Below, one piece after another: positions 3,583 to 54,419 of a DNA stretch of 64,000 nucleotides. Each line of letters opens with the position of its first letter. Position 1 is the stretch's first letter. This DNA comes from Fimbriiglobus ruber (GTDB lineage Bacteria; Planctomycetota; Planctomycetia; Gemmatales; Gemmataceae). The position numbers and the translations under genes were made by a program. The stretch covers positions 744,001-808,000 of the forward strand of contig NZ_NIDE01000005.1 of NCBI RefSeq assembly GCF_002197845.1. The letters run 5' to 3'. Under the pieces are notes generated by a model, which saw nothing but the letters and a program-made list of their open reading frames with translations, was not told the DNA's origin and did no database searches.

Positions 3583-4905
3583 GTGGCCGATCGGGTGCTC
3601 ATCCTCGGCGCGTCCGCCCGGGCCGCGGCCGCCTCCGCGCGGCGGGCGGGGCTGGAGCCGTTCGCCATCGACCTGTTCGCGGACGCCGACACCCGTCGCA
3701 TTTGCGATAGCTTGCGCTGCCCGCCCGACGAGTATCCGCACGGGCTCTTCGCGCGGGCGAAGCAGGCCCCGCCGATGCCCTGGATGTACACCGGCGGCCT
3801 GGAGAACTACCCCGAACTCGTCGGCGAACTCGCCCGGGAACGCGAGCTGTGGGGCAACGGGCCGGACATCCTCGCCCGCGTGCGCGACCCATTTCAGCTT
3901 CAAGAGTGGGCTCGCGAAGCCGGGTTCAAATTCCCGCTGACCGTACCGGCCGGGGAAAAGCTCGGGAGCGGTCGCTGGCTCCGCAAGCCGCTCCGGTCCA
4001 GCGGCGGCACGCAAATCGATTTCGTTCCCGACAACGACACGACCTCATCCGCGGCGACCTCGGTTCGACAGCAATTCGTCGACGGCGTGCCCATGTCGGC
4101 TTACGTCGCGAACGTCCGCGGTTCCGTTCTTTATGGCGTGACCCAGCAACTGATTGGTGAACGCTGGCTGCACGCGCGCCCGTTTGCGTACTGCGGCAGC
4201 CTGACCCATGATGCTCGTGAAACGGGTTCCGGTCGGCCCCCGGTGTCCCCGGGCTCCCGCCCGGGTCTACGTCAGGCCGCCCCGGAGGGGCGGAAGGCGC
4301 GCGATGAGCGTTCACACGCTTTCACCCAAGGGCGATGGCTTTCCGCCCCTCCGGGGCGGCCTGACGTAGACCCGGGCGGGAGCCCGGGGACACCGGGGGC
4401 CGACGTCACCCACTGCCCAGCGTCACAGCACGTCGCGGACATGATATCTGCTTTGGAGGATCGATGCCCGTTGACGTGGATATGGGGGTTCGATTTCATT
4501 TGGTGCGATGGGGAACTGACTCTTCTCGAAGTGAACTCCAGGTACACGGCTTCGATCGAAGTCGTCGAACACGCATCCCGTTTGTCGTTGATGAATTGGG
4601 GGCGTGCCATTTTCCTTCAACCACCACCCGAACCGCGTACCGTCGGCAAGGCCATCTACTACGCCCCCCACCACCTCACCTTCCCCGCGTCCGGCCCCTG
4701 GGACGATTCGCTCGCGCACGCGGACGACGTGTGGCGGCGGCCGGACTTCGCCGACATCCCGCACGCCGGCGACGCGATCGAACGCGGGCACCCGGTTCTC
4801 ACCATCCTGGCCGACGGTGCCGACTACGGCGATTGCCTGGACCGGCTACAATCACGGGCGGCGGACCTGGACCGCCTGTTCGCGACCTGCCACCCCAAGG
4901 ACTGA
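3583..4905 (+). CDS. ATP-grasp protein carrying an in-frame palindromic insertion
   Basis: An ATP-grasp carboligase-like protein, probably cytoplasmic. The N-terminal pre-ATP-grasp fold is VLILGASARAAAASARRAG; the ATP-binding core contains LRKPLRSSGGTQI; the metal-binding end is WGFDFIWCDG and LLEVNSRYTASIEV, typical of the family. It begins at GTG 3583 and its stop lies three bases before the mch start. In methylotrophs an ATP-grasp gene of this kind accompanies tetrahydromethanopterin C1 genes, so a role in cofactor or polyglutamate-like ligation is a reasonable inference. Oddly, residues ~217-274 are encoded by a 171-bp intergenic-type palindrome (4233-4403), exactly 57 codons, which keeps the frame. 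Whether the product still folds is unknown. Confidence 0.8.
   Translation: MADRVLILGASARAAAASARRAGLEPFAIDLFADADTRRICDSLRCPPDEYPHGLFARAKQAPPMPWMYTGGLENYPELVGELARERELWGNGPDILARVRDPFQLQEWAREAGFKFPLTVPAGEKLGSGRWLRKPLRSSGGTQIDFVPDNDTTSSAATSVRQQFVDGVPMSAYVANVRGSVLYGVTQQLIGERWLHARPFAYCGSLTHDARETGSGRPPVSPGSRPGLRQAAPEGRKARDERSHAFTQGRWLSAPPGRPDVDPGGSPGTPGADVTHCPASQHVADMISALEDRCPLTWIWGFDFIWCDGELTLLEVNSRYTASIEVVEHASRLSLMNWGRAIFLQPPPEPRTVGKAIYYAPHHLTFPASGPWDDSLAHADDVWRRPDFADIPHAGDAIERGHPVLTILADGADYGDCLDRLQSRAADLDRLFATCHPKD
4233..4403. repeat. Perfect 63-bp-arm palindromic element inside a coding sequence
   Basis: Left arm 4233-4295 and right arm 4341-4403 are exact reverse complements, separated by a 45-base spacer. 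The arms contain CCCGGGCTCCCGCCCGGG, GTCTACGTCAGG and CCGCCCCGGAGGGGCGG. The same family occurs in intergenic copies near 5881-6015, 13661-13986, 52396-52735 and 53876-54412. This copy has the cleanest arms and lies within the ATP-grasp gene without breaking the frame (171 = 57 x 3), like the palindromic elements found in Rickettsia genes. Confidence 0.92.
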
Positions 4906-4908
4906 CCG

Positions 4909-5853
4909 ATGCCCACCCTGAACGAACTCGCGAACCGCGTGGCGGACGAACTGGCCGCGCACCCGGAAGAGTTGCGGGTCGCCGTGTCCCGGGTCGGTGG
5001 GGCGCGGGTGATCGACTGCGGCGGCGCGGTCACCGGGAGTCTGCGGGCGGGCCTACTCATGGCTCGCGCGTGCCTCGCCGATCTGGCGGACGTGACGGTC
5101 GTGCCGTCGCCGCTGGCCGACATACCCGGTCCGGCCATCCAGGTCCACACGGACGACCCCGTCCGCGCTTGCCTCGCGTCGCAGTACGCCGGCTGGCAGG
5201 TGTCGGTGGGCAAGTTCTTCGGCATGGGGTCCGGCCCGATGCGGGCGGCCTACGCCAAGGAGGAGGTTTTCCACCACATCCCCGGCAAGGAAGAGCCGGC
5301 GTGTGCCGTTGGCGTGATCGAGACGCGCAAGCACCCGACCGAGGAGGTCGTCACGAGCATCGTCAACAAGCTGCCGCGGTCGGTGGAAAAGCTGACGCTC
5401 CTCGTCGCCCCGGCGTCGAGCATCGCCGGCAACATCCAGGTCGTGGCCCGGTCGGTCGAGACGGCCCTGCACAAGCTGCACGAGTTAAAGTTCGACGTAA
5501 ACCAGGTCGTGAGCGGATACGGGATCGCTCCGCTCCCGCCGGTGACGCCGGACGAGTTGGCCGCGATCGGCCGGACGAACGACGCGATCTTGTACGGCAG
5601 CCGGGTCACGCTCTGGGTCCGGGCGGACGACGAACTGATCGAGGCGGTCGGCCCGAAAGTCCCGTCCAGTTCGTCCAAGGACCACGGGGCGCTGTTCGCC
5701 GAGTTGTTCGCCCGCTACGGCGACTTCTACAAGATCGACCCGCTCCTGTTCTCCCCGGCCGAGGTGACCTTCGTGAACCTGAAGTCCGGCAAGTGCCACA
5801 CGTTCGGCAAGGTCGAGCCGGGGCTGTTGCGGAAGTCGTTCTTCGGGGAGTGA
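4909..5853 (+). CDS. mch: Methenyltetrahydromethanopterin cyclohydrolase
   Basis: A 314-residue protein matching Mch over its full length. The enzyme hydrolyses 5,10-methenyl-H4MPT to 5-formyl-H4MPT (reverse in methanogens) in the cytoplasm, as part of the H4MPT-linked formaldehyde oxidation/C1 transfer pathway. Recognisable segments are GGAVTGSLRAGLLMARACLAD, QYAGWQVSVGKFFGMGSGPM, GVIETRKHPT, LLVAPASSIAGNIQVVARS, and the C-terminal FARYGDFYKIDPLLFSPAEV and KSGKCHTFG. Planctomycetes are known to carry H4MPT C1 genes, though most are not known to grow on methanol. ATG 4909 follows the ATP-grasp stop by three bases, so translation is probably coupled. No other H4MPT gene is in the window. Confidence 0.93.
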   Translation: MPTLNELANRVADELAAHPEELRVAVSRVGGARVIDCGGAVTGSLRAGLLMARACLADLADVTVVPSPLADIPGPAIQVHTDDPVRACLASQYAGWQVSVGKFFGMGSGPMRAAYAKEEVFHHIPGKEEPACAVGVIETRKHPTEEVVTSIVNKLPRSVEKLTLLVAPASSIAGNIQVVARSVETALHKLHELKFDVNQVVSGYGIAPLPPVTPDELAAIGRTNDAILYGSRVTLWVRADDELIEAVGPKVPSSSSKDHGALFAELFARYGDFYKIDPLLFSPAEVTFVNLKSGKCHTFGKVEPGLLRKSFFGE

Positions 5854-5880
5854 GCGGTTTTGGAGATGGGCTGGGGCCAG

Positions 5881-6015
5881 CGCCCGGGTCTACGTTCGGA
5901 CGCCCCCGAGGGGCTTGAAAACCAGGACATTTCCTCCCGGCTGGGGTGGACATCGTCTCGTTTTCCGCCCCTTGTGGGCGGCCGGACGTAGACCCGGGCG
6001 GGAGCCCGGGGACAC
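5881..6015. repeat. Degenerate copy of the palindromic element
   Basis: A diverged member of the family at 4233-4403. The left arm (about 5881-5920) has CGCCCGGGTCTACGTTCGG; the right arm (about 5961-6015) has CCGGACGTAGACCCGGGCGG and GAGCCCGGGGACACC. It fills the spacer between mch and the VOC gene, so those genes are probably not tightly coupled. Confidence 0.8.
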
Positions 6016-6053
6016 CTGCCCGAACCTTCCTCCCGCGCCCGAGGCCCGCACCG

Positions 6054-13660: not shown

Positions 13661-13986
13661 CCCCGGTGTCCCCGGGCTCCCGCCCTCGTTGTACCCCACA
13701 AGTCTGCAACGTCTTTCGTAACAAGATGTTGCGGACACGGCATTCGGAAGGCCCAAATCCGCTTCGCCGCTTGGAAAACGCTTGTTTTCCAGGCCATTCG
13801 GAAGGGGCATTTTCGCTGCTTCCGACTTATGGGGTACAACGAGGGCTCCCGCCCGGGTCTACGTTAGGCCGCCCCGGAGGGGCGGAAGATGCGGGCAGCG
13901 AGTTCACACGCTCTCACCCGAGGGCAATGGTTTTCCGCCCCCCCCGGGGCGGCCGGACGTAGACCCGGGCGGGAGCCCGGGGACAC
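13661..13986. repeat. Palindromic element with nested 157-bp element
   Basis: A copy of the 4233-4403 family filling the pfaD-pfaA spacer. Left arm about 13661-13685 plus 13843-13886, right arm about 13932-13986, with a spacer between. The left arm is split by the 157-bp element, which is bounded by GGGCTCCCGCCC on both sides. No gene is seen in 13650-14061. Confidence 0.88.
13686..13842. mobile_element. 157-bp MITE-like element, copy 1
   Basis: Ends are TCGTTGTACCCCACAAGTC and its inverse with one mismatch (19 bp). It is flanked by a 12-bp direct repeat GGGCTCCCGCCC at 13674-13685 and 13843-13854. An internal palindrome GGAAAACGCTTGTTTTCC is present. It has no credible coding region, so any transposase must act in trans. 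Confidence 0.85.
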
Positions 13987-14061
13987 CGGGGCGGGCTCCC
14001 CGCCTATCCCCGGAACTAGCAGACCCAGAGGCGGATCGACTTGCGGACCGAAGGAACCACG

Positions 14062-35842: not shown

Positions 35843-35918
35843 GCCGAACGGCGGGGTCGGAGACCCGCGCCGAGCGCGACGCCGAACGGCGGGGTCGGAG
35901 ACCCGCGCCGAGCGCGAC
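35843..35918. repeat. Perfect tandem duplication of a 38-bp unit
   Basis: 35843-35880 and 35881-35918 are identical, each containing GGGGTCGGAGACCCGCGCC, itself a small palindrome. It sits between the VapBC-like pair and the next minus-strand gene. No spacers, so it is not a CRISPR array. Confidence 0.85.
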
Positions 35919-52345: not shown

Positions 52346-52395
52346 CGGTGCGCTCCAGTCTGGCCCGGGTGAGCGAATGGAAAGGGCGTGAAGTC

Positions 52396-52735
52396 AGCCC
52401 CCGGCGTCCCCGGGCTCCCGCCCTCGTTGTACCCCACAAGTCTGCAACGTCTTTCGTAACAAGATGTTGCGGAAACGGCATCCGGAAGGCCCAAATCCGC
52501 TTCGCCGTTTGGAAAACGCTTGTTTTCCAGGCCATTCGGAAGGGGCATTTTCGCTGCTTCCGACTTATGGGGTACAACGAGGGCTCCCGCCCGGGTCTAC
52601 GTCAGGCCGCCCCGGAGGGGCGGAAATCCATCCCACCCATCCAATCACTGTTCTACATCCACGCGGTATTCCGCCCCTCCGGGGCGGCCTGACGTAGACC
52701 CGGGCGGGAGCCCGGGGACGCCGGGGGCTGACCTC
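52396..52735. repeat. Palindromic element with nested 157-bp element, E1beta-E2 spacer
   Basis: A copy of the 4233-4403 family occupying the spacer between E1beta and E2. Left arm 52396-52423 continues at 52581-52624; right arm ~52670-52735. The left arm is interrupted by the 157-bp element. No gene in 52346-52767. Confidence 0.88.
52424..52580. mobile_element. 157-bp MITE-like element, copy 2
   Basis: Same length and ends as copy 1 and only a few differences, flanked by GGGCTCCCGCCC at 52412-52423 and 52581-52592. Confidence 0.85.
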
Positions 52736-52767
52736 ACGCCCAAATCCACATCCCTGTCCGAATTACC

Positions 52768-53826: not shown

Positions 53827-53875
53827 CGGGAGAAGCTACAAGTTACGGGGAAGAGGGACAGCAGGCGGTTTTCCG

Positions 53876-54095
53876 CCCCTCCGGGGCGGCCTAACGTAGA
53901 CCCGGGCGGGAGCCCTCGTTGTACCCCACAAGTCTGCAACGTCTTTCGTAACAAGATGTTGCGGAAACGGCATCCGGAAGGCCCAAATCCGCTTCGCCGT
54001 TTGGAAAACGCTTGTTTTCCAGGCCATTCGGAAGGGGCATTTTCGCTGCTTCCGACTTATGGGGTACAACGAGGGCGGGAGCCCGGGGACACCGG
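53876..54095. repeat. Half palindromic element with nested 157-bp element
   Basis: Only the right-arm type of the 4233 family is seen (53876-53915, then 54073-54095), interrupted by the 157-bp element. With the inverted half at 54188-54412 it forms one larger inverted structure filling the E1alpha-E1beta spacer. Confidence 0.85.
53916..54072. mobile_element. 157-bp MITE-like element, copy 3 (opposite to host arm)
   Basis: Flanked by GGGCGGGAGCCC (53904-53915 and 54073-54084), the reverse complement of the target in the other copies. So it inserted at the same site in the opposite orientation relative to the palindrome arm. Confidence 0.85.
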
Positions 54096-54187
54096 GAGCT
54101 GAGATCCTGCCCAATCAACGAGAGAACTCAATCAGGTTGACCACTGCCGACTGGTGGCGGATTCTGACTTCGGGTGCTGTTTTCTCC

Positions 54188-54412
54188 CCGGTGTCCCCGG
54201 GCTCCCGCCCTCGTTGTACCCCACAAGTCTGCAACGTCTTTCGTAACAAGATGTTGCGGAAACGGCATTCGGAAGGCCCAAATCCGCTTCGCCGTTTGGA
54301 AAACGCTTGTTTTCCAGGCCATTCGGAAGGGGCATTTTCGCTGCTTCCGACTTATGGGGTACAACGATGGCTCCCGCCCGGGTCTACGTTAGGCCGCCCC
54401 GGAGGGGCGGAA
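54188..54412. repeat. Half palindromic element with nested 157-bp element
   Basis: The left-arm type (54188-54210, then 54368-54412), interrupted by a 157-bp element. No gene is seen in 53827-54419. Confidence 0.85.
54211..54367. mobile_element. 157-bp MITE-like element, copy 4
   Basis: Same length and terminal repeats. Left target GGGCTCCCGCCC (54199-54210); the right copy has one change (TGGCTCCCGCCC, 54368-54379). Confidence 0.85.
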
Positions 54413-54419
54413 AACCAAA

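Follow-up and report, generated by a model that had tools for sequence, protein, structure and literature searches.

The analysis supports a palindromic repeat family that lies mainly between genes and has one copy in frame inside a gene, an ATP-grasp gene whose orthologues lack the insert. This gene is located in the window, that is, the whole 64,000-nt stretch of DNA that was analysed, and the features that concern the insertion are as follows.

3583 to 4905, plus strand: host gene, encoding the ATP-grasp protein in 440 codons from a GTG start and staying open across the insert; Pfam PF02655 (ATP-grasp_3) at residues 103-209, E 2.9e-11
4232 to 4295: left arm of the palindrome (64 nt), complementary to the right arm at every base; its GTAG tag is at 4267-4270 on the minus strand
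4296 to 4340: spacer, 45 nt
4341 to 4404: right arm, 64 nt; its GTAG tag is at 4366-4369 on the plus strand
4218 to 4418: probable full insertion, about 192-201 nt, based on the outer motif profile at flanking positions 18-41, orthologue loop lengths and AlphaFold2 pLDDT
Inside residues 214-277 of the host protein: the stretch KARDERSHAFTQGR
4909 to 5853, plus strand: mch, methenyltetrahydromethanopterin cyclohydrolase (TIGR03120, E 1.4e-118; Pfam PF02289)

The preliminary description had reported perfect 63-bp arms around a 45-base spacer, 171 bp in total, read through in frame within an ATP-grasp gene. Positions 4233-4295 are indeed the exact reverse complement of 4341-4403, and perfect pairing reaches one base further (4232/4404), giving arms of 64 nt; a second inverted-repeat readout assigned the in-gene palindrome 67-nt arms, 99% complementary and 39 nt apart. 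The GTG open reading frame stays open across the palindrome and, among the six frames over 4218-4418, only that of the ATP-grasp gene is free of stops. The RNA of 4215-4421 has a folding energy of -195.8 kcal/mol compared with -107.4 +/- 5.1 kcal/mol for 200 shuffles (z -17.3). The right arm, taken as a single strand, is predicted to form two small hairpins flanking the GTAG tag, and these are no stabler than shuffled sequences (z -1.1; 25 of 200 shuffles fold as well). Perfect inverted repeats are classical assembly artefacts and could arise here from a snap-back or misjoined read. However, the sequence belongs to a family of 57 copies with similar anatomy, and past its arms the outer flanks do not mirror each other; we regard an artefact as hardly credible.

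A weak motif outside the arms, reaching to about 41 nt out, is common to many family copies and is present on both sides of the in-gene copy. Based on these flanking motifs and on a low-confidence segment of the predicted structure, residues 214-277 (bases 4222-4413), the insertion probably has a length of about 192-201 nt (from about 4218/4222 to 4413/4418). This corresponds to 64-67 residues, above the 171 nt and 57 residues of the strict palindrome, and the addition of about 57 residues that was originally proposed is probably too small in view of the outer motifs, the orthologue loop lengths and pLDDT. AlphaFold2 gave the host protein a mean pLDDT of 84.5, 325 of its 440 residues reaching at least 90, and the predicted fold matches solved ATP-grasp enzymes; a profile of the orthologue alignment matched eight sequences of solved structure, most of them named as ATP-grasp enzymes. 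Residues 214-277 have pLDDT below 50 and sit on this confident ATP-grasp body, and the added segment may accordingly be read as a disordered loop.

A match to the protein was found in 55 of 59 genomes (its own included), and in most relatives the match is broken near residues 208-290. From the YCGS to the WG.D motif, the loop comprises 96 residues in the host protein, 28-32 in 27 of 29 orthologues and 53 in the other two. In a larger set, the best 80 of 278 orthologues, from which L130 and L165 were dropped as short to leave 78 full-length sequences, the commonest loop has 32 residues and 71 of 78 have at most 36; the two sets overlap, the loops of L116 and L125 being the same as those of L039 and L048, and many of the named orthologues are Gemmataceae records. 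Only one of the 78, L179 with 91 residues, has a loop near the length of the host's, and its sequence is different. We also considered whether the insert is a conserved protein segment, which would have spoken against the insertion proposed at the outset. This is not supported, given the short loops in 27 of 29 and 71 of 78 orthologues and the other sequences of the seven longer loops printed among the 78.

The repeat family was catalogued in the genome of the window (12.36 Mb, 20 contigs), where a search with the element led to 40 of 120 candidates being scored. With up to three mismatches, the core pattern yielded 119 half-sites compared with 11 in a reversed control. The catalogue was built on 49 stretches around copies plus the window, with 109 half-sites, and may be incomplete. 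An 18-nt core allowing up to three substitutions is found in 66 places; allowing up to two, and leaving out three further stretches that carry transposases (L110-L112), it defines 57 elements. The Y1 genes in these three stretches each have a different palindromic repeat beside them. The 57 elements consist of 47 inverted pairs, five pairs in the opposite arrangement and five single units, and the core span is 113-119 nt in 44 of the 47 inverted pairs. By eye, the spacers are mostly unlike one another, with some recurring. The dinucleotide on the side of the tag has four variants, and 38 of 47 pairs have the same one in both arms, pointing to homogenisation of the arms within each element. Over 63 nt, the arms differ on average by 6.0 positions within an element and 7.7 between elements (29 elements), a modest difference, and 24 of 47 pairs have arms whose inner 20 nt are identical.

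That copies elsewhere are intergenic, as first described, holds throughout the catalogue: by our own codon-based gene calls, 56 of 57 elements lie between genes and the copy at 4232-4404 is the only genic one. Since the coding fraction of the window is 0.83, random placement would leave about five-sixths of the copies in genes. Among the 56, 25 lie between two plus-strand genes, 23 between two minus-strand genes, four between convergent and four between divergent genes, and nine copies touch a predicted gene end within a margin of 35-41 nt. The possibility that other copies are also genic was considered and rejected: 14 of the 56 lie in a spanning frame free of stops, none of them with a positive codon score on both sides, and none of 12 loci that were re-examined has a coding-like GC pattern on both sides. 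In 58 other genomes, with up to 14 candidates scored per genome, the family was not found except for one 35-bp match.

Besides the in-gene copy, the window contains the following members of the family.

5874 to 6016: degenerate intergenic copy, directly after mch
13661 to 13993: intergenic copy with a MITE nested in the left arm
52384 to 52741: intergenic copy with a MITE nested in the left arm
53867 to 54113: single-unit intergenic copy with a nested MITE
54186 to 54417: single-unit copy with a nested MITE, touching a predicted gene end

The MITE is about 160 bp long with the ends TCGTTGTACCCC/GGGGTACAACGA, and its position is the same in each of the 21 units that bear it (loci L061-L109 and the window). 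Its four copies in the window, at 13685-13842, 52424-52581, 53916-54075 and 54211-54368, have, by eye, the 12-nt sequence GGGCTCCCGCCC or its complement on both sides, exact in three and with one mismatch in the fourth; this may reflect a choice of target of the IS4/IS231 type. Two other repeats were observed in the window, namely an inverted repeat at 424-595 (47-nt arms, 91%), which by eye resembles the repeats around the transposase of L112, and an exact 38-bp tandem duplication at 35843-35918.

The anatomy of the family resembles that of REPs and REPINs. Its units, which contain ACGTAGACCCGGGCGGGAGCCCGGG, have a GTAG (GT[AG]G) tag where a predicted hairpin begins, the hairpin being no stabler than shuffles; it is multicopy and mainly intergenic, and inverted doublets with a variable spacer make up 47 of its 57 elements. 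The unit departs from the 20-40 bp of typical REPs in being about 64 nt long with two hairpins. The genome contains three Y1 transposase genes, the first two of which score above the cut-off of the NCBIfam IS200/IS605 transposase model, while the third falls slightly short of it. The REP-associated transposase model gives the first a score of 19.7 against a cut-off of 80 and does not list the other two. The gene at C5:161105-161443 scores as an IS200 TnpA and not as a REP-associated transposase. Adjoining this C5 gene, on one side only, is a perfect palindrome (31-nt arms, 4-nt loop) that holds the outer 30 nt of the family; the family's outer hairpin precedes the likely GTG start by 20 nt, and an alternative TTG start would place the palindrome inside the transposase open reading frame. 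This outer 30-nt core occurs, with up to three mismatches, in eight places in 12.4 Mb, five of them exact, compared with none in a control, and about 0.002 chance neighbours of the Y1 gene would be expected if the core is confined to intergenic DNA. The data suggest one repeat family per Y1 transposase.

Rickettsia palindromic elements (RPEs) are palindromes inserted in genes and read as protein, and they had been named as the parallel for the present insert. The parallel stands for the mode, insertion in frame into a gene that carries no such insert in its orthologues, and not for the kind of element, for which GTAG-tagged REP dimers are closer. Judged by tag and anatomy, an RPE was not adopted as the family, as the GTAG tag and the REP-dimer anatomy fit REPs better; in this family just one of 57 copies is genic. 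According to PMC3733652, R. conorii RPEs have CGTC at one end. The same paper describes GTAG-tagged REP dimers that share with our family the GTAG at the hairpin foot, the inverted pairs, the intergenic majority and some genic copies, whereas here a two-hairpin unit of about 64 nt builds a palindrome of about 171-201 nt. REPs of the GTAG and CGTC kinds that lie within genes, dimers among them, have already been published; the stretches they encode are 20-30 residues long, or 43-82 in clusters, and Planctomycetes and Verrucomicrobia are among the REP hosts (PMC3733652). REPINs (PMC3116915) are likewise extragenic inverted doublets; they fold into a single hairpin and their spacer is less conserved. 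Here the arms are larger, the mobility is putative and the transposase type is uncertain. By analogy, the element would work like a GTAG-tagged REP dimer or REPIN and would be nearer to these than to RPEs. Two further comparisons can be made. In nematomorph mitochondria (PMC6649704), long perfect palindromes also lie within coding sequence, but there both arms encode conserved residues, while the insertion here is absent from orthologues. REP insertions in tnpA-REP genes (PMC6006769) also leave the frame undisrupted, the host gene in that case being the transposase itself.

The start of mch lies 3 nt past the stop codon of the ATP-grasp gene. Among the 80 orthologue loci, which extend for 2.5 kb or as far as the contig allows and may thus miss further mch neighbours, 21 have a same-strand mch match; in 12 of these it starts at a distance of 0-3 nt from the final sense codon. 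The orfY-mch neighbourhood presumably ties the host gene to MyfA/OrfY, and on this basis the gene may be considered a candidate MyfA/OrfY, methylofuran glutamate ligase. This is the activity given for MyfA/OrfY in PMC8141765.

We consider it likely that a non-autonomous, REP-dimer-like palindrome was moved by a Y1 transposase into a tolerant linker of this protein, where it is translated while the enzyme is still active. A Y1 (HUH) single-strand transposase would recognise the small hairpins with their GTAG foot and would move an inverted pair of 64-nt units together with the outer extensions. The landing site would be the ATP-grasp linker between the strand ending in YCGS and the next helix. 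The insert would then be translated as a disordered loop of 64-67 residues, and the enzyme would stay active because the linker tolerates the extra length. Most other genic landings would have been lost to selection, leaving surviving copies that are nearly all intergenic.

An open frame is by itself weak evidence for translation into an active enzyme, since open, in-frame placement by other family members is not rare by chance: it amounts to 7-8% if length and frame are independent, or to 2-12% when both are counted jointly, depending on the ends assumed. A recent insertion could thus have inactivated the gene, the open frame being luck and the protein, if made, dead. The perfect arms imply that the insertion may be young, with little time for selection to show, and the very stable mRNA hairpin is in keeping with such an event, as is the P319S change in the EVNPR motif at a near-invariant position. 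It is, however, the sole exception among 51 near-invariant residues, 50 of which are kept in the host protein; the 28 compared orthologues have 0 to 6 such departures (the truncated gene of L040 is excluded from this count, and its GC3 figure is meaningless). GC3 outside the insert drops on both sides from about 0.9 to 0.60-0.85 (3883-4662), which would also be consistent with inactivation. This dip (-0.22) is the largest among 30 genes, followed by -0.11 in the close relative L029, while the close orthologue L028 has none. Mutation of nearby codons induced by the palindrome was rejected as its cause, as no drop is seen in genes beside other copies compared with gene ends far from copies. Against inactivation stand 440 codons without a stop or frameshift, the position of the low-confidence linker beside a confidently folded enzyme core, and the open-frame repeats that other genomes keep in linkers of the orthologous gene. 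On balance, a dead gene seems unlikely to us.

A 64-bp perfect hairpin in mRNA could cause ribosomes to stall or serve as a substrate for RNase III. The hairpin could therefore be bypassed by the ribosome, or the mRNA cut, giving a protein without the extra residues, or it could set the ratio of ATP-grasp protein to Mch. The folding energy given above and the 3-nt distance to mch would agree with these possibilities, and translationally bypassed palindromic elements exist in Magnusiomyces mitochondria, according to PMC6649704. However, bypassing would not need a frame that is kept and free of stops, and we think bypass or cutting very unlikely compared with translation of the insert in a working enzyme.

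The orthologous gene in other bacteria also carries repeats. Palindromes with arms of at least 16 nt were found in eight of 78 orthologue genes: in the second linker, before GKAIYYA, in L114, L117, L119, L122, L132 and L151, in the first linker in L179, and at the very end of the gene in L126. Three shorter palindromes, below this limit on arm length, occur in L115, L138 and L169, and the first linker of L187 contains a short repeat. Searches within the own genome covered five inserts (L117, L119, L122, L179 and L187), and four of them are multi-copy; the match counts below include both strands, partial matches and the insert itself.

L119, 3310 to 3466: in-frame repeat in the orthologue gene, 88 matches in its own genome
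L117, 1212 to 1303: in-frame repeat in the orthologue gene, 97 matches in its own genome
L122, 3325 to 3390: in-frame repeat in the orthologue gene, 55 matches in its own genome
L187, 3163 to 3196: in-frame repeat in the orthologue gene, 54 matches in its own genome

For the L179 palindrome, no second copy was found in its own genome. The repeats of L117, L119, L122 and L187 do not match one another; an arm of the L119 repeat matches L123, a Gemmata record, within the orthologous gene (40 nt, 90%), and the two may go back to one shared event. There are thus five genomes, that of the window included, with multi-copy repeats in frame in this ATP-grasp gene. The other hosts, by record titles that are mostly of metagenome bins, are two Gemmataceae, a gammaproteobacterium and a Chloroflexi bacterium. 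Compared with 11 of 215 other open reading frames at the same loci, which are delimited by stop codons on both sides and may include non-coding ends, the eight of 78 ATP-grasp orthologues with palindromes represent a roughly twofold excess that is not significant (p 0.10), so that enrichment in this gene is suggestive and not shown. It is possible, though in our view less likely than not, that the two linkers are recurrent landing sites and that different mobile repeats time and again supply new disordered segments, perhaps tuning expression of the gene itself or of mch through an mRNA hairpin.

In summary, what is new here is a repeat family with unusually large units, present in none of the 58 relatives apart from the single 35-bp match, and the occurrence of in-frame repeats in linkers of the same ATP-grasp gene in other bacteria. 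Among the titles found in searches on palindromes in this lineage, subscription journals being outside the scope, none reports this family. Protein-invading palindromes are hereby extended to a Gemmata-like genome, where the REP-like family is unusually large. The orthologues form a natural series of one enzyme, from versions lacking an insert to versions with small and with large palindromic ones, which makes it testable whether a 64-bp perfect hairpin is tolerated by ribosomes and by the protein, and in what way mobile repeats turn into protein sequence. The most interesting aspect is the repeated landing of such repeats in one gene.
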